Origin: Mucilaginibacter glaciei
GTDB taxonomy: Bacteria > Bacteroidota > Bacteroidia > Sphingobacteriales > Sphingobacteriaceae
Direction: 5' to 3'
Assembly (NCBI RefSeq): GCF_014773245.1
Contig: NZ_JACWMX010000003.1
Location: 372,001 to 436,000 of the forward strand
DNA length: 64,000 bases
In this document: positions 3 to 8,215 of the stretch, piece by piece
How the letters are laid out: every line of letters starts with the position of its first letter
Numbering within the stretch: the stretch's first letter is position 1
The notes under the pieces: model-generated
The model's database searches: none
The model's input: only the letters and a program-made list of their open reading frames with translations
Told to the model about the DNA's origin: nothing
Program-made: the position numbers and the translations under genes

Positions 3-410
3 ATCGGCCGCTACGATGCCCTGAATGGCCTAATGTTAAAAGGCGATGGAAAGGGGGGCTTTAAACCTTTAAGTATTTTACAAAGCGGCATCTATATACC
101 GGGCGATGGCAAGGCTTTAGTAAAGTTACGTGATAGTAAGGGGCAGGTGCTGTTGGCCGCCAGCCAGAATAAGGACTTTATGAAGCTATTTAAGTGGAAA
201 GCAAAAGCTAATACCATACCCGTGCAACCTAATGATGCCTATGCTTTGGTGAAATACAAAAACGGGCAAACAGAGAAACAGGAATTTTACTTTGGTGCAT
301 CATTTTTGTCCCAGTCGGCCAGGTTTATCAACATCACAGATAAAATGGAAAACATCATCGTGGTAGACAATAAAGGCAATAAGCGGGGACTTACCAACAT
401 TAAAAAGTAA
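3..410 (+). CDS. 3' end of VCBS/FG-GAP repeat protein (ASPIC/UnbV type), partial
   Basis: The reading frame is open from base 3, so this is the C-terminal 135 residues of a longer gene cut by the window edge; the ATG at 33 is internal. The residues before it (IGRYDALNGL) and after it (GDGKGGF, then SGIYIPGDGKALVKL) resemble the end of the large secreted VCBS/FG-GAP repeat proteins of Bacteroidetes, which usually carry a C-terminal ASPIC/UnbV region. Such proteins are exported and often sit near SusC/SusD systems; their role is not well known. The gene ends 41 bases before the DUF1080 gene and may belong to the same transcription unit. The family call rests on recalled similarity of a short fragment; the missing N-terminal part would settle it. 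Confidence 0.7.
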   Translation: MGRYDALNGLMLKGDGKGGFKPLSILQSGIYIPGDGKALVKLRDSKGQVLLAASQNKDFMKLFKWKAKANTIPVQPNDAYALVKYKNGQTEKQEFYFGASFLSQSARFINITDKMENIIVVDNKGNKRGLTNIKK

Positions 411-414
411 GCAC

Positions 415-448
415 TTAAAAATCTTAAATTATAGTTAAAAATCTTAAA
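415..448 (+). repeat. Two direct copies of a 14-bp sequence before the DUF1080 gene
   Basis: TTAAAAATCTTAAA occurs at 415-428 and again at 435-448, with start points 20 bp apart, which is about two helical turns. The second copy ends three bases before the ATG at 452. The sequence is AT-rich, so chance is possible, but the exact identity and spacing fit a possible site for a dimeric regulator or a leader element. Confidence 0.4.
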
Positions 449-451
449 AAA

Positions 452-2281
452 ATGATCTACAAAAATTATAAAGCGATTTATCTTGCTTTTTGGCTTTTAG
501 CTTTTGCCGGCGCAGGTAGTAGCTATGCGCAATCGCTTAATAATCCGGTCGCGCTAAATGATCTGAGCGCATTTGCCGCCCCTCCCAAAAACTGGGAAAT
601 AGCGGGTGGCGTTCACGCCGATCTGGATAAGGATAACCAAATGCAGGTAATCAAAGGCAGTGGTATTTTAGTGAATCGTTTTGATGAAAAAAACATTGGC
701 AGGGATCTTTATTTTAACTTGCAGCACGGAGATATCGACCTGGAGATGGATTACGCTATGGCCCGTGGTTCCAATTCCGGTATTTATTTACAAGGCCGTT
801 ATGAAATCCAGTTACTGGATAGTTGGGGTGCCATTAACCCTAAAGCAGGCGATAACGGCGGTATTTATGAGCGTTGGGACGATGCGAAGGCCGAAGGGAT
901 GAAGGGCTACGAAGGCCATGCGCCACGGCAAAATGCCAGCAGGGCGCCTGGCTTATGGCAGCACGTCCGTATTTCATTCCAGGCACCAAAGTTTGATGGA
1001 AATGGCGTGAAGATAGCTAATGCAAAAATGCTTTACTTATGGCTAAATGGCGTAATGATACAGGAAAATGTAGAGCTATCCGGCCCTACCCGGGGTGCGT
1101 TTGATAACAAAGAAAGCGCCTTGGGCCCGCTGCGTTTACAGGGCGATCATGGTGCCATAGCGTTTAAAAACATCAGTTATACCAATTTTAATAAACCGCA
1201 CCCTACGGTAGCTAATCTTAAATACGCTGTTTACAAAGGTGATTTTACGGTAGAGCCTAATTATAAAACTATTAAGGCTGAAGCGCAGGGTGTTACTCCA
1301 ATGCTTACATCTAACGAAGTTAAACTGGCCAACGAGTTTTTATTAAAGTACACAGGAATCTTGCACGTTAACGAGGCAGGCGAATATACGTTTAAACTAA
1401 GCGTGCCAGGGGGCAAAGGTGGTTTGAAAATTAATAGTGCAACCGTTGTTACCGCTAATGGTTTTAGAGGTACAGGAACAATGGCCTTACCCGCCGGTGA
1501 TCTGCCATTTGAGATCGTTTATATAAAGAATGTTGATTGGGCAAAGGCCGCTTTGGGTCTTACGGTATCGGGGCCGGGTGTGCGTGAGTACCTGCTGAGC
1601 GATGCCAATGTAAGTTCTAATGATGCTGTTGACCCAATATTGATCAACGCGACAGAGAATACCATTTTGCGCAGTTTTACGGATGTGCCCGGCGGCATCA
1701 GGGTTACCCACGGGGTAGGTGTGGGTAGTGTTGAGCAGTTACATTACACGTATGATATGGACAAAGGCATGATCGTGCAGATATGGCGGGGCGGATTTTT
1801 GGACGCCACCCCAATGTGGCACGAGCGTGGCGACGGTTCATCAAAGCCTGCAGGGTCTGTTCAGTACCTGGGTAAACCATCACCGGGCATAACAAAGCTT
1901 GCAGATGCGAATGCTGCATGGCCCGCAGATACTAATAGTACTGGCTACAAGCCCAAGGGTTATACGTTGGATGCTGATAGCCGGCCCACTTTTAAATATA
2001 TTATTTACGGAGCAACCGTTAGTGATGCAAGTATAGTAATGCCAGCGGGTCAGGGCCTTCATCGTGAAGTAAGCGTATCTGTGCCGATAGCCAACTTATA
2101 TATGCGCCTTGCATCAGGTTCAAAAATAGAGATGCTTAAGCCGGGCTTATACTCCATAGATGACCGATACTACATCCGGGTGGATGAGGGCAATGAGAAG
2201 CCTGTAACCCGTATTGTCGGTGGAATGCAAGAGCTAATTATACCGGTACTGAAAAAGGTAACTTATTCAATCATTTTTTAA
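452..2281 (+). CDS. Secreted DUF1080 protein with PA14-like middle domain (3-keto-disaccharide hydrolase family)
   Basis: 609 residues. A signal peptide spans about 1-27 (hydrophobic core then SYAQ). A DUF1080 domain covers roughly 45-245, with the family landmark GSNSGIYLQGRYEIQLLDSW at 106-125 and the closing stretch on LQGDHGAIAFKNI. A PA14-like segment with glycine-rich turns follows at about 255-385, then a beta-rich C-terminal part without a clear name. DUF1080 proteins adopt a concanavalin-like fold, and several are known to act on 3-keto-glycosides, cleaving the bond after C3 oxidation. This copy probably works in the periplasm or at the cell surface. It lies eight bases before the propeller-cytochrome gene and is most likely co-transcribed with it. 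Substrate is unknown. The fused middle domain may bind carbohydrate; that is inference. Confidence 0.85.
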   Translation: MIYKNYKAIYLAFWLLAFAGAGSSYAQSLNNPVALNDLSAFAAPPKNWEIAGGVHADLDKDNQMQVIKGSGILVNRFDEKNIGRDLYFNLQHGDIDLEMDYAMARGSNSGIYLQGRYEIQLLDSWGAINPKAGDNGGIYERWDDAKAEGMKGYEGHAPRQNASRAPGLWQHVRISFQAPKFDGNGVKIANAKMLYLWLNGVMIQENVELSGPTRGAFDNKESALGPLRLQGDHGAIAFKNISYTNFNKPHPTVANLKYAVYKGDFTVEPNYKTIKAEAQGVTPMLTSNEVKLANEFLLKYTGILHVNEAGEYTFKLSVPGGKGGLKINSATVVTANGFRGTGTMALPAGDLPFEIVYIKNVDWAKAALGLTVSGPGVREYLLSDANVSSNDAVDPILINATENTILRSFTDVPGGIRVTHGVGVGSVEQLHYTYDMDKGMIVQIWRGGFLDATPMWHERGDGSSKPAGSVQYLGKPSPGITKLADANAAWPADTNSTGYKPKGYTLDADSRPTFKYIIYGATVSDASIVMPAGQGLHREVSVSVPIANLYMRLASGSKIEMLKPGLYSIDDRYYIRVDEGNEKPVTRIVGGMQELIIPVLKKVTYSIIF

Positions 2282-2289
2282 AAATAGCC

Positions 2290-4227
2290 ATGAGGAATTT
2301 ATTAAAGCGAATGATGAACAAGGTTTTATTTTTTGCCACTGTTGTTATACCATTTTTTTGCATCAGTCAGCGTGCACTGGCACAAGCTGAATCACCTAAA
2401 GAGGATGATTTTTTTAAGATCATGAAAGTGCCCGCTCCGGAGGGCACCATATTAGAAGTAGGCGGCCTTTGCACTTTGCCAAATGGCAGTTTGGCTGTCA
2501 CCACCCGCAGGGGTGATATCTTTATAGTTGAGAATCCTACCAGCCAGCGGCCATTTTTCCGCAAGTTTGCGTCGGGTTTGCACGAGGTTTTAGGTGCAGC
2601 TTACAAAGACGGGGCTTTATATGTGGTGCAGCGTGGCGAGCTGACTAAACTGGTAGATACAAATATGGACGGTAAAGCCGATGTGTTTGAAACGGTTTAT
2701 GCCTGGCCTTTATCCGGTAATTACCATGAGTACAGTTTCGGGCCTAAGATCGCGCCGGACGGGTCTTTTTTTGTAACCCTTAACCTGGGTTTCCCGCCAG
2801 ACTGGTGGCACCCAAAAAGCTTTGTTCCTTACCGTGGTTGGGCGCTTAATATTACCGAAAGTGGTGTGGTTACCCCTTGGGCGGCAGGTTTCCGTTCGCC
2901 ATGTGGTATTAGCATGATAGATGGTGAACTGTGGTATAGTGATAATCAAGGCGACTGGGTAGGCTCGGGCAGTATTATGCCCGTTAAAAAAGGAGCCTTT
3001 ATGGGCCACCCGGCCAGTTTGGTATGGACTAGTTTGCCAAATTCTCCTTTAAAGCTAACCCCGGAAGAATTCTTTGCGAAGAACAACCCGAGGATAGAGT
3101 TTGATAAAAGTGGCCAGCCATTTAAACCGCAAAACATCGTTAACGAAAAATACCGTACAGAAGTTGATGCCAAACGAGATATACCGGCATTACAACTACC
3201 TGCGGTTTGGTTGCCACACGGCATCCTCGGGATATCTAATTCTGAGATCGTTAAAATTCCGGAAGGGACATTCGGGCCTTTTGCGGGGCAGTTGTTGGTT
3301 TGTGATCAGGGCCAGAGTATGATCGACCGTATCTTTATGGAAAAAGTGAATGGCGAATACCAAGGTGCAGCCTGGGCTTTCCGAAGCGGATTTCAGTCCG
3401 GAATAGTGCGCTTGGCCTGGTTGCCGGATGGGTCATTAGCCGCGGGCGAAACTAACAGGGGCTGGGGTTCGGCAGGTGAGGCCACCATGGGTTTGCAGCG
3501 ATTAATATGGAACAACCATATCCCTTTTGAAATGCGTGCCATCCGCGCAATGCCCGATGGTTTTGAAATTGAATTTACCAAGCCGGTTGAAAGGAAGGTT
3601 GCTGAAGATATCGCCTCATATTCTGTAGAAAGCTTTACTTACAAATACCACGGCGTATACGGTAGCCCGCCGGTAGGTAACCAAAAATGTGCGGTGACCG
3701 GCGTTAAAGTATCTGACGATGGCTTGCGTGCGCGAATTGTGGTGAGCAACCTGCGCAGCCGCTTTATACATACCATTACCCTTGATGGTGTACGCGATAA
3801 AGAGAAATACTTTAACCTGGTTCATCCAACAGCTTACTATACGTTAAATAATATCCCTGAAGGAAAAAAACTAAGTTTAACGGAAGTAAGTGTCAAGAAT
3901 TCAAAGGCTGCCGTAAAATCTGCAAAGTCAGCTCCGGTAATGAAGGGAGCAATAGTGGCGGCAAATAAAGTGCCGTCATATGATGAAATTAAACCGTTGC
4001 TGGTAAAAAACACATGTTCTGCATGCCACAATCCAGATAATAAACAGGTTGGCCCTGCTTTTAAAGATATCGCTAAACGCAGGTATAGTGTAGAACAGAT
4101 TATAGCGTTGATCAAAAACCCTAAGCCCGAACACTGGCCCGATTACTCGACCCCGATGCCGCCTATGCCGCAGGTTGCTGCAGCGGATGCCCGTAAGATA
4201 GCCACATGGATAAGGTCGCTTAAATAA
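2290..4227 (+). CDS. Secreted beta-propeller protein with C-terminal cytochrome c domain
   Basis: 645 residues. The N-terminus carries a signal peptide (cleavage near ALAQ, about 32); ATG codons at 2311 and 2314 are possible alternative starts. Residues about 40-420 form a propeller of the glucose/sorbosone dehydrogenase-like type, with repeats such as LPNGSLAVTTRRGDIF and LPDGSLAAGETN. After a linker the last 80 residues are a class I cytochrome c domain: heme motif CSACH at 576-580 and a methionine-rich MPPMP stretch that can give the distal ligand. Similar fusions are common in Bacteroidetes and Planctomycetes and are usually unassigned. The heme domain argues for extracytoplasmic electron transfer. 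Sitting between two DUF1080 genes, it could oxidise a sugar and pass electrons to the respiratory chain; this role is inferred from context. Confidence 0.85.
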   Translation: MRNLLKRMMNKVLFFATVVIPFFCISQRALAQAESPKEDDFFKIMKVPAPEGTILEVGGLCTLPNGSLAVTTRRGDIFIVENPTSQRPFFRKFASGLHEVLGAAYKDGALYVVQRGELTKLVDTNMDGKADVFETVYAWPLSGNYHEYSFGPKIAPDGSFFVTLNLGFPPDWWHPKSFVPYRGWALNITESGVVTPWAAGFRSPCGISMIDGELWYSDNQGDWVGSGSIMPVKKGAFMGHPASLVWTSLPNSPLKLTPEEFFAKNNPRIEFDKSGQPFKPQNIVNEKYRTEVDAKRDIPALQLPAVWLPHGILGISNSEIVKIPEGTFGPFAGQLLVCDQGQSMIDRIFMEKVNGEYQGAAWAFRSGFQSGIVRLAWLPDGSLAAGETNRGWGSAGEATMGLQRLIWNNHIPFEMRAIRAMPDGFEIEFTKPVERKVAEDIASYSVESFTYKYHGVYGSPPVGNQKCAVTGVKVSDDGLRARIVVSNLRSRFIHTITLDGVRDKEKYFNLVHPTAYYTLNNIPEGKKLSLTEVSVKNSKAAVKSAKSAPVMKGAIVAANKVPSYDEIKPLLVKNTCSACHNPDNKQVGPAFKDIAKRRYSVEQIIALIKNPKPEHWPDYSTPMPPMPQVAAADARKIATWIRSLK

Positions 4228-4238
4228 AAACATACAAA

Positions 4239-5006
4239 ATGAAGAATAAATTGATCATAATAATTTTGTTTACAGCGGCATCTTTATCGGCGACTGCACA
4301 AACCGGTAAACCCGAAGCAACCGAAGTTTGGGCTCCCATTCCGAGAGTGGTTACAGCTGCCGAAAAAACCGGAGCTGCCCCCTCAGATGCTTTAATACTA
4401 TTTGACGGTAATACTCTTGATGAGTGGGTGCTGACGAATGACAGCACTTTAACCCGCAAATGGAATGTTGCGGGCGGTATCATAACAGTAGATAAAAAGG
4501 CCGGTGACCTGCAAACCAAGCGAAAATTTACAGATTTTCAACTGCATATCGAGTATCGGATCCCTGCGGATATTACAGGCAGCGGGCAGGCGCGTGGCAA
4601 TAGTGGTATATTTTTAGCCGCGCTACCTTGGGGTGCAGGCGGTTACGAATTGCAGGTGCTGGATAACTACAACAACAAAACCTATGTGAACGGGCAGGCG
4701 GGTAGCATATATAAGCAATCGCCGCCATTAGTAAATGCATGCCGTAAGCCCGGTGAGTGGAACGCCTACGATGTAGTATGGACCGCTCCACGTTTTAACG
4801 ACGCCGGTACTTTAAAATCACCCGCGCGTGTAACAGTATTACACAACGGTATTTTGGTGCAAAATAATACCGTTTTATCGGGCGACACGCCTTACATCGG
4901 ACAGCCGCAATACCGTAAACATGGTCCTGAGCCTATAAAACTACAAGCTCATGGCGATGATAGTAAACCAATAAGTTACCGCAATATTTGGGTGCGAAAT
5001 CTTTAA
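4239..5006 (+). CDS. Secreted single-domain DUF1080 protein (3-keto-disaccharide hydrolase family)
   Basis: 255 residues. A signal peptide at 1-20 ends in SATA before QTG. The rest is one DUF1080 domain: LFDGNTLDEW at 54-63, ARGNSGIFLAAL at 118-129, GGYELQVLDNYNN at 134-146 and a C-terminal IKLQAHGDDSKPISYRNIW. This is the typical short form of the family, whose characterised members act on 3-keto-glycosides. It starts 11 bases after the propeller-cytochrome gene, so the three genes from 452 to 5006 look like one operon. It differs from the longer copy at 452 by lacking the PA14-like part, so the two may act on different substrates or in sequence. Confidence 0.87.
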   Translation: MKNKLIIIILFTAASLSATAQTGKPEATEVWAPIPRVVTAAEKTGAAPSDALILFDGNTLDEWVLTNDSTLTRKWNVAGGIITVDKKAGDLQTKRKFTDFQLHIEYRIPADITGSGQARGNSGIFLAALPWGAGGYELQVLDNYNNKTYVNGQAGSIYKQSPPLVNACRKPGEWNAYDVVWTAPRFNDAGTLKSPARVTVLHNGILVQNNTVLSGDTPYIGQPQYRKHGPEPIKLQAHGDDSKPISYRNIWVRNL

Positions 5007-5040
5007 GTTAAACTAAGATATAAATTTACAAACTACCATT

Positions 5041-5238
5041 ATGAGCGTAATCATAGGCGAGAAAGAATTTATCAAGAACATAGGACAAGTTCAATACGAG
5101 GGCCAGGGATCAGAAAATCCATTGGCATTTCGCTGGTACGACGAAAACCTACTCAACTACGCCGCTGCCAACCGCGAACCGGTCACTACCAGCGGCAATT
5201 AGTTATACCTTGAGAATTTGATTAACAGATATCTATAA
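5041..5238 (+). pseudogene. xylA: Xylose isomerase remnant: both ends of xylA joined after loss of the middle
   Basis: An ATG at 5041 opens a 53-codon frame. Its first 36 residues (MSVIIGEKEF..., then NPLAFRWYDEN) match the start of Bacteroidetes-type xylose isomerase as I recall it. The frame then passes directly into LLNYAAANREPVTTSG, which resembles the extreme C-terminus. A TAG at 5200-5202 interrupts it, and the same frame continues as LYLENLINRYL and a final TAA at 5236-5238, where the intact enzyme would end. About 370-380 of roughly 440 residues are missing, including all metal and substrate ligands, so no isomerase activity is possible. The join lies near 5148. The final TAA overlaps the ATG of the next gene by one base. 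A residual 53-residue peptide could still be translated. The identification is from memory of the family and has not been checked by alignment. Confidence 0.82.
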
Positions 5239-6860
5239 TGATGATGAAACGGCAGTTTAAATATTTTTTGTTACTGATTTTTTTGGCGTTTGGTATTGCA
5301 TCAACAGCGCAAACTCCTGATGTTAAAATGCCCAGGCTTGTAACAACCAACGGGCGGCACGCGTTACTGGTTGATGGGAAGCCTTTTTTAATACTGGGCG
5401 GGCAGGCGCACAATTCAAGTGCCTGGCCGGGTATGCTGCCGCAGGTTTGGAAAGCGATAGATAAGTTGCACGCCAACACATTGGAGGTGCCCATTTACTG
5501 GGAAAATATAGAACCTGAACAAAATAGGTTCAATTTTGCTGTTATCGATACGCTGTTAGCGCAAGCAAGGCAACACAATAAAAAGCTGGTTTTACTATGG
5601 TTTGCAACCTGGAAAAACGGTAGCAATCATTATATGCCCGCCTGGATGAAAAAAAATGCATCCAAATATCCTAACACCACCGGGTTAAAAGGGAAGCTGA
5701 TTGATTCACCGTCGCCCAATGTAAATGCAACGCTCGATGCCGATATTGCTGCCTTTAAAGCAGTGATGGGACACCTTAAAGCTGCCGACTCACAACACAC
5801 AGTTATAATGATGCAGGTAGAAAATGAACCTGGATCATGGGATACGATAAGAGACTATTCGCCGGTTGCCCAAAAAGTGTTCGAACAACAAGTGCCCGCA
5901 GCATTATTAACCCCTGCGGTTCTTAAAGAGTTGAAACATACTAATACAGCAAAAGGCACTTGGCAACAGGTTTTTGCAGATAATGCCGACGAGTATTTCC
6001 AGGCATGGTCAATAGCTACTTTTATAGGTAAAGTTGCTGCGGCCGGTAAAGCAATTTATCCGTTGCCTATGTACGTAAATGCCGCCCTGCGCGATCCGCT
6101 TACTGATCCAAAACCACCCTCTTATGAAAGCGGCGGCCCTACTGATAATGTATTGGCGTTGTGGAAAGCTGCCGCCCCTGCGATCGACCTTTTAGCACCA
6201 GATATTTATTTATCAGGCAGCGAGAAGATCTTAAAGGTCATTGAATTGTACGACCGGCCGGATAATGCACTTTTTGTGCCTGAAGCTGGCCTGGAACCGG
6301 AAAAAGCCAAGTATCTTTATTCGGTACTTGCACACGGCGGCATCGGCTTTTCACCATTTGGAATTGACGCCAATAATGCAGATGTGACAGACGAAGAACT
6401 GTCTGCGTCGCTACGTCCTTTTAGTCAGGATTACGCGGCACTCTCGGGAATGGCTGATCTGATGGCTGGCTGGGTTTATGAGGGTAAGGTAAGTGCCCTT
6501 GTTGAGCATGATGACCATTCCGAACAAACCCTTGACCTGGGCATGTGGCAGGCTAAAGTAGCTTTCGGTTCTATCGATCGTAATATAGTAAAGCCCAATG
6601 TAATCTCTACAGGCAGGGTAATTATTATAAAGCTGGCGCCAGATAGTTTTATTTTATTAGGCTCATTAGCCAATATCACCTTTAAGCCGTTAAAAGAAAA
6701 TTCAGGCAAAGCCTGGCAATATTTAAAAGTTGAAGAAGGTATTTACCAAAACGGGACATTTAAATCGCTACGGGTACTCAACGGCGACGAAACGGATTGG
6801 GGAGGCCCGCGTTTTGATAGACGTACAACGGTTTTAAAGGTTGATCTGGTAGCCAGGTAG
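5238..6860 (+). CDS. Secreted GH35-like beta-galactosidase with DUF5597-type C-terminus
   Basis: 540 residues. ATG codons at 5238, 5241 and 5244 are all usable; the first overlaps the xylA remnant stop. A signal peptide covers about 1-25 (IASTAQ). A GH35/GH42-type barrel follows. Its start is marked by HALLVDGKPFLILGGQ (41-56), the proposed acid/base glutamate is E197 in QVENEPGSW, and the proposed nucleophile is E349 in FVPEAG. A beta-rich region after about 400 corresponds to the DUF5597 domain often found on these proteins. It should remove terminal beta-galactosyl or related residues outside the cytoplasm. It follows the DUF1080/cytochrome operon by about 230 bases that contain only the xylA remnant. 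It could be read from the same transcript. Exact sugar specificity cannot be read from sequence. Confidence 0.83.
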   Translation: MMMKRQFKYFLLLIFLAFGIASTAQTPDVKMPRLVTTNGRHALLVDGKPFLILGGQAHNSSAWPGMLPQVWKAIDKLHANTLEVPIYWENIEPEQNRFNFAVIDTLLAQARQHNKKLVLLWFATWKNGSNHYMPAWMKKNASKYPNTTGLKGKLIDSPSPNVNATLDADIAAFKAVMGHLKAADSQHTVIMMQVENEPGSWDTIRDYSPVAQKVFEQQVPAALLTPAVLKELKHTNTAKGTWQQVFADNADEYFQAWSIATFIGKVAAAGKAIYPLPMYVNAALRDPLTDPKPPSYESGGPTDNVLALWKAAAPAIDLLAPDIYLSGSEKILKVIELYDRPDNALFVPEAGLEPEKAKYLYSVLAHGGIGFSPFGIDANNADVTDEELSASLRPFSQDYAALSGMADLMAGWVYEGKVSALVEHDDHSEQTLDLGMWQAKVAFGSIDRNIVKPNVISTGRVIIIKLAPDSFILLGSLANITFKPLKENSGKAWQYLKVEEGIYQNGTFKSLRVLNGDETDWGGPRFDRRTTVLKVDLVAR

Positions 6861-7012: not shown

Positions 7013-8215
7013 ATGTTTTCAAAAGTTTATAAACCTTTAATATTAGGCATCGCGCTAATATCATTAACTACCGCCGGCAGGGCACAAACCGGTGAGCCGG
7101 TAGAAAAAAATAAAGCAAATACTACTTACAAACCTGCTTTTGCCGGGCAAACCCGCATTGGTAGCGTTAAAACAAAAACGCTATATACCGTTACGGTTAT
7201 CAATTCAGAACTGAAGGGCCCTTGGGGTATACATGCTTTGCCTGATGGCCGTTTACTAATAAGCGGGAAGCCTGGTACGATGCAAATATTAACTACTGCC
7301 GGCAAAGTTGTTAAAACTATTACGGGTTTCCCTGAGGTGCAGTTTCTAAGCCAGGGTGGTTTGCTCGACGTCAACATTGATCCAGATTTTACAAAGAACC
7401 GCATGATTTATTGGACTTATGCCCAGCCGGGTGCTGCAGGTGCAACCCTTGCAGTAGCTAAAGGGAAGCTATCAGCAGATGAAACAAAGCTGGAGAACGT
7501 TAAAGTTATATGGGAGGCTTATCCGCGTTACAAAGGCGCAGGGCAATTCGGCTCGCGTTTGGTGTTTGATAAACAAGGGAACATTTTTGTAAGCTCCGGC
7601 GACCGCCAGGCAAATGATATAAGGGTAAAAGCGCAGGACCTGAGTGCTACTACCGGTAAAATGATCCATATCACTAAAGATGGTAAACCGGTTTACAACA
7701 ATCCGTTCATTGGTAAAGATGATGCCAAGCCAGAGATTTATGCCTTCGGTTTTCGCAACCCCGACGGACTTGCTGTTAACCCGGTAACCGGAGGCCTGTG
7801 GGAAGCTGAATTTGGCCCTCGTGGCGGTGATGAGATCAATTTGGTAAAGGCTGGCGGTAACTACGGCTGGCCATTTGTTACCTATGGTATTGAATATAGC
7901 GGTGAAAAGGTATATGACGGCATACAACAAAAGCCGGGTACTGTACAGCCGGTTTACTATTGGGATCCAGTTATTTCGCCGGGATGTATGATGTTCTATA
8001 CAGGCAATATTGCCGAATGGAAGAATAACCTGTTTGTAGGCGGGTTAAGTGGACAACACATTATTCGCCTGATCATTAAAAATAACAAAGTTGTTGGTGA
8101 AGAACGCCTGCTTGCTGATAAAAATGAGCGGTGGCGTTGTATAACTACCGGAACAGACGGCGCAATTTATGCCGGGACCGATAATGGTAAATTATATCGG
8201 ATCGCAAAGCAATAG
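7013..8215 (+). CDS. Secreted PQQ-type sugar dehydrogenase (glucose/sorbosone dehydrogenase family), possible active-site change
   Basis: 400 residues with a signal peptide at about 1-24 (TAGRAQ). The six-bladed propeller shows the usual landmarks: PWGIHALPDGRLLIS at 70-84, QGGLLDVNIDPDF at 115-127, GSRLVFDKQGNIFVSSGDR at 180-198, FGFRNPDGLAVNP at 245-257, EFGPRGGDEINLV at 266-278 and GGNYGWP at 281-287. Family members oxidise sugars in the periplasm with PQQ as cofactor. In relatives I remember, the segment is H-F-G-S-R and the His is the catalytic base; here it is Q178-F-G-S-R (codon CAA), so dehydrogenase activity is in doubt. A terminator-like hairpin follows the stop. Its place beside the heme-propeller and DUF1080 genes suggests a link to oxidative sugar metabolism. 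Confidence 0.82.
   Translation: MFSKVYKPLILGIALISLTTAGRAQTGEPVEKNKANTTYKPAFAGQTRIGSVKTKTLYTVTVINSELKGPWGIHALPDGRLLISGKPGTMQILTTAGKVVKTITGFPEVQFLSQGGLLDVNIDPDFTKNRMIYWTYAQPGAAGATLAVAKGKLSADETKLENVKVIWEAYPRYKGAGQFGSRLVFDKQGNIFVSSGDRQANDIRVKAQDLSATTGKMIHITKDGKPVYNNPFIGKDDAKPEIYAFGFRNPDGLAVNPVTGGLWEAEFGPRGGDEINLVKAGGNYGWPFVTYGIEYSGEKVYDGIQQKPGTVQPVYYWDPVISPGCMMFYTGNIAEWKNNLFVGGLSGQHIIRLIIKNNKVVGEERLLADKNERWRCITTGTDGAIYAGTDNGKLYRIAKQ

Follow-up and report, generated by a model that had tools for sequence, protein, structure and literature searches.

The window analysed here, a stretch of 64,000 nucleotides from Mucilaginibacter glaciei, holds a short reading frame (5041-5238, + strand) between a 3-keto-disaccharide hydrolase gene and a glycosyl hydrolase gene. 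In a first-pass annotation the frame was read as a xylose isomerase (xylA) fossil, with the two ends of the gene fused after an internal deletion. This raises the question of whether the frame encodes a small protein or is a remnant of xylA and, in the latter case, how xylA came to this site. The frame reads as described there, with 53 codons, TAG at 5200-5202, 11 codons and TAA at 5236-5238; it translates as MSVIIGEKEFIKNIGQVQYEGQGSENPLAFRWYDENLLNYAAANREPVTTSGN, a stop, LYLENLINRYL and a second stop. The locus is composed of the following features.

4239..5006, + strand: 3-keto-disaccharide hydrolase gene (PF06439, Pfam E 2e-44; older family name DUF1080), by gene order the last of a cluster conserved in relatives
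5014..5040, + strand: copy of the kinase stop codon and of the 24-nt spacer before xylA, identical to the native locus at 24/27 bases (in blastn piece 5014-5141)
5041..5142, + strand: xylA codons 1-34, 93/102 bases identical to the intact xylA of the same genome
5143..5238, + strand: xylA codons 412-442 and stop, 74/96 bases identical; native codons 35-411 are missing at the 5142/5143 junction
5200..5202, + strand: in-frame TAG in place of Gln431, from comparison with the native gene and 46 relatives
5238..6860, + strand: glycosyl hydrolase gene with a GH35-like stretch and DUF5597 (Pfam), its ATG overlapping the relic TAA as TAATG

Comparison with the genome's own intact xylA locus bore out the fossil as a match in two blocks. 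In blastn, 5014-5141 was 91.4% identical (E 5.8e-47) and 5143-5239 was 77.3% identical (E 1.8e-15); the remaining two pieces were 20-base matches elsewhere (E 0.81). With the intact protein as tblastn query, both halves aligned significantly, residues 1-34 at E 2e-15 and residues 412-442 at E 5e-7. Both ends of xylA thus lie within 5014-5239, joined in frame and with the middle gone. The two-part structure proposed earlier holds, but the lengths given for it, 36 and 16 codons, do not: the relic comprises 34 N-terminal and 31 C-terminal codons, 19 of the 31 preceding the TAG. The join was set there because relic codons 35-36 (GAA AAC) agree with the native 3' part (GAA GAC) but disagree with the 5' part (GCC GGT). 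An in-frame loss of about 370 codons had been noted; the frame is indeed kept, and the number is corrected to 377 codons (35-411) or 1131 bases. Preservation of the frame, taken earlier as a hint of recent loss, is no sound guide to age, since a third of all deletions would preserve it. Deletion between repeats was set aside, since the native flanks of the join have just one base (G) in common. Upstream, the copied DNA starts 27 nt before the relic ATG; downstream of the relic stop, similarity to the native locus extends for one base only.

A full xylA, which the first reading had advised looking for elsewhere, is present in the source genome (G000, contig C1; 442 amino acids, E 7.9e-202), on a different contig from the relic. 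It is flanked by a sugar kinase gene on one side and a sodium/solute symporter gene (SSF, E 2e-56) on the other. The kinase belongs to the FGGY family; its best NCBIfam model is xylulokinase TIGR01312, at 313 bits below the cut-off of 380. Against the xylose isomerase model TIGR02630, the relic scored 20.1 bits over 26/435 positions with a cut-off of 533.25, and does not qualify as a functional xylose isomerase. The catalytic fold should be unable to form from it, because 377/442 residues are absent and a TAG lies within. What it does present are the marks of a xylA pseudogene: both ends match, most of the gene is lost, a TAG disables the frame and constraint is relaxed. The view of the locus as a former home of xylose genes stands for one copy of xylA and not for further genes: searched with the kinase and symporter proteins of the intact locus at E up to 0.1, the window gave no match.

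The source of the copy was sought among 59 xylA sequences, of which 48 remained after 11 identical copies were dropped. Of these, the native xylA and L169 (444 codons) were kept separate; the other 46 are the relatives used for comparison, and one (L031 of G037) is from outside the genus. In the 5' part, relic and native gene differ at 9/102 bases, and the nearest relative differs from the relic at 24. The tree of this part grouped relic and native gene at 99/89, with a native branch near zero and a bootstrap not fully settled. Among native bases of the 5' part that are rare in the 46 relatives, the relic has 12/15, and any relative at most 6. The 30-nt xylA leaders of relatives, compared by eye, look different from the spacer shared by relic and native locus. 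Because the copied piece spans this 24-nt spacer up to the stop codon of the upstream kinase, its source is the lineage's own xyl operon. The 5' divergence, the 5' grouping and the shared spacer point to a copy most likely made within the lineage, after its split from the sampled species. The divergence of the two parts (9/102 and 22/96 sites) suggests a copy younger than that split, yet not brand new.

The site was then compared in relatives. At 33-5006 the window carries a cluster kept in several of them, consisting of a hypothetical gene (no Pfam family), a 3-keto-disaccharide hydrolase-like gene that has a PA14 stretch below threshold, a cytochrome c gene and the second 3-keto-disaccharide hydrolase gene. 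Its content is suggestive of 3-keto-glycoside metabolism; a PQQ label for the cytochrome c gene was dropped, as Pfam gave it no backing. This order is common in relatives, the hypothetical gene being undetected in some. In 8 of 12 relatives' stretches, the cytochrome c gene is followed by the 3-keto-disaccharide hydrolase gene, and two of the stretches (L206 and L209) stop at contig ends just beyond. In the other 6 of these 8, where sequence past the cluster is readable, neither xylA nor the glycosyl hydrolase was found; in G150 and G130 another gene comes after the 3-keto-disaccharide hydrolase gene. G073 and G127 (L207 and L208) show a different arrangement of the cluster: here the same glycosyl hydrolase comes almost immediately after this gene, with neither xylA nor a cytochrome c gene between, and the first ATG of the glycosyl hydrolase lies 6 nt beyond the last aligned 3-keto-disaccharide hydrolase codon. 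The first locus surveys reported only matches longer than 100 to 150 nt; a second XylA search, with no length filter and run on 152 loci at E up to 1, matched nothing in the genus but the window's own relic (two loci). Other matches were L104 (Luteimonas, at a contig end) and, weakly, L049 (E 0.31) and L070 (E 0.82), with 13 xyl-bearing Gammaproteobacterial loci left unlisted. An intact xylA at the same locus, which the first-pass annotation had advised looking for, was not found in the relatives examined, and a position shared with them was rejected. Since their equivalent sites are without any xylA trace, xylA at the relic site looks like an addition of the source lineage.

The glycosyl hydrolase could have been present before xylA, as in G073 and G127, or could have arrived with it. 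Among 80 loci with DUF5597/GH35-like hydrolases, 13 had XylA or XylB at E up to 1e-10, and a 14th (L104) had the start of XylA at a contig end (E 7e-6). All 14 carry xylA and/or xylB in the downstream flank and belong to Xanthomonas, Lysobacter, Dyella or Luteimonas (L082, L084-L086, L088, L092, L093, L100, L102, L104, L105, L108, L110 and L111). A Xanthomonas xyloglucan locus with GH35, adjoined by xylulokinase and xylose isomerase genes, is described in PMC8245568. Arrival as a xylA-hydrolase pair was set aside, since none of the 14 loci is from Bacteroidota (flanks of at most 8 kb); within the genus, comparison of coordinates by eye revealed no hydrolase and xylA side by side. Downstream of the glycosyl hydrolase, the window carries a glucose/sorbosone dehydrogenase (GSDH) gene (7013-8215, PF07995). 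Within the genus, its nearest relatives (up to 86%) lie apart from the glycosyl hydrolase in 5/5 loci checked, and this part of the cluster may therefore be newly assembled. Arrival together with the GSDH gene was also rejected, the GSDH loci of the five relatives (short flanks) holding neither xylA nor the glycosyl hydrolase.

Second copies of xylA were surveyed in 149 genomes of the genus at E up to 0.001. XylA matches were present in 144, own genome included, and absent in five (G011, G015, G108, G009 and G161). Among the matches listed, a relic made of start and end occurred in the source genome only. Four genomes (G137, G118, G162 and G130) had partial matches, which in G137 and G118 begin in the first bases of a contig. 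Two full copies each were found in G026, G115 and G029; second xylA copies therefore do arise. A different relic lies in G014 (contig C32, L215 6697-6903), comprising the last 69 residues of xylA (374-442) at 71%, with a symporter gene directly downstream and, by eye, a short kinase-gene-like scrap upstream. Because of this additional relic, spare xylA copies have probably been lost at least twice in the genus.

Over the 65 codons of the relic, 13 residues differ from the native protein, counting the TAG that stands for Gln431 (native CAA), which is Gln in 46/46 relatives. With the first two residues omitted, 4/23 residues invariant in 47 intact proteins are altered (Phe11, Gly422, Gln431 and Glu432). 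In leave-one-out controls, which are biased to low counts where close kin are in the set, 45/47 intact proteins changed no invariant residue, L026 changed one and the out-of-genus L031 three. The TAG and the pattern of changes fit a pseudogene and agree with the earlier proposal of drift since the deletion. The two halves have diverged unequally. Relative to the native gene, 22/96 bases differ in the 3' part, against 9/102 in the 5' part (Fisher p = 0.010) or 12/129 once the leader is counted with the latter (p = 0.008); intact genes show no faster change in the 3' part (median differences of native gene to relatives 30/102 for 5' and 26/96 for 3'). Six of the 22 changes are packed into seven bases at the TAG. 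The codon-position counts on the relic branch (positions 1, 2, 3: 2, 1, 2 in the 5' part and 6, 3, 3 in the 3' part) look flat, which carries no weight because third positions make up 8 of the 10 sites left unpolarised. A single simple copy event is unproven for both halves, because the 3' half is more diverged and, in its tree, joins the native gene with weak support (30/77). Any of three events could account for the excess: a mosaic origin, a single change of several bases, or partial conversion of the 5' part with the native gene as donor. In a mosaic variant of the preferred account, with which its odds overlap, the 3' piece would stem from an older xylA copy at the relic site, and conversion or illegitimate recombination with the native gene would have supplied the leader and 5' piece at a later time. 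The unequal divergence favours it, as does the 3' half having just 4/9 of the bases rare outside the native gene, when the best relatives have 4 or 5. However, 96 bases resolve little, the best tree still places the 3' piece with the native gene, and the contrast weakens when the seven-base block is excluded (16/89 versus 9/102, p = 0.084; versus 12/129, p = 0.067). The relic site holds no xylA in any relative examined, and we regard the variant as unlikely.

The frame lies within a same-strand gene run, and a 53-residue peptide could be made from it. Pfam gave no family for this peptide at E up to 0.001, and its NCBIfam matches were xylose isomerase models only (best E 3.4e-7), so no intact small-protein family in either database claims it. 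A separate small-protein family was thereby ruled out, and together with the DNA-level E values (6e-47 and 2e-15) these matches leave a negligible probability that the peptide represents such a family or a chance resemblance. That residues invariant elsewhere have changed speaks against a protein under selection, and the simplest reading of the sequence is that the relic would have no function. It might instead have been kept as an expression element, its leader and short frame loading ribosomes and, via the TAATG overlap, coupling translation to the hydrolase downstream. Its place in the gene run, the overlap of its original stop with the hydrolase start and the better preservation of its 5' half would suit such a role. 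Translation, however, now stops at the TAG, 35 nt before the hydrolase start. The 5' changes are scattered, and one of them puts Ile in place of Phe11, a Phe in 46/46 relatives; together these points make the role improbable. Still harder to credit is a captured translation-start module, in which the xylA leader and first codons would have been retained, with the deletion in frame, because they aided expression of the glycosyl hydrolase by TAATG coupling, until the later TAG made the module obsolete or shifted the coupling distance. A promoter-like match of sigma-70 type at 5210-5239 (11/12; three sites found compared with 1.5 expected) was given no weight, because such promoters are not known to be typical of Bacteroidota.

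The relic is a pseudogene of a duplicated xylA, a real and ordinary gene fossil. The full account, a copy of xylA from the own operon, its insertion, the in-frame loss of 1131 bases and pseudogene drift with a TAG, appears to us very probable; its order, copy first and deletion second, and the absence of function are what we infer. The kinase-xylA-symporter operon would have given rise to a second xylA with a short upstream spacer, which would have inserted downstream of the 3-keto-disaccharide hydrolase gene and ahead of that for the DUF5597 glycosyl hydrolase. This copy would then have lost codons 35-411, and the remaining ends would have drifted and acquired the TAG. The loss probably cost little, because the intact xylA on the other contig still supplies the enzyme. 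An intermediate, in the form of an intact xylA at the relic site, was found in no genome, and the literature searched, on xylose isomerase in Mucilaginibacter among other topics, had no mention of this relic. Bacterial pseudogenes are treated, for example, in Kuo and Ochman 2010 (PMC2916853). The relic would thus record the duplication of xylA into a 3-keto-disaccharide cluster in one lineage and its subsequent loss, a tidy case of gene-copy turnover. It leaves knowledge of xylose metabolism unchanged; annotators might call a false 53-residue gene here.

Compared with XylA as modelled in TIGR02630, the relic keeps the first 34 and last 31 residues, plus the spacer upstream of its own xylA, but lacks 377 of the 442 residues and has a TAG inside. 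With the 3' relic of G014 it has in common that the end of xylA is left and that a full xylA exists elsewhere in the genome; unlike it, the G014 relic lies directly 5' of a symporter gene, as native xylA does, with the kinase-gene scrap (by eye) before it. Bacterial pseudogenes are characterised by large deletions, nonsense codons, changes at invariant residues and an intact copy elsewhere. The relic resembles them in all of these traits and differs in that its deletion happens to preserve frame, start and stop.
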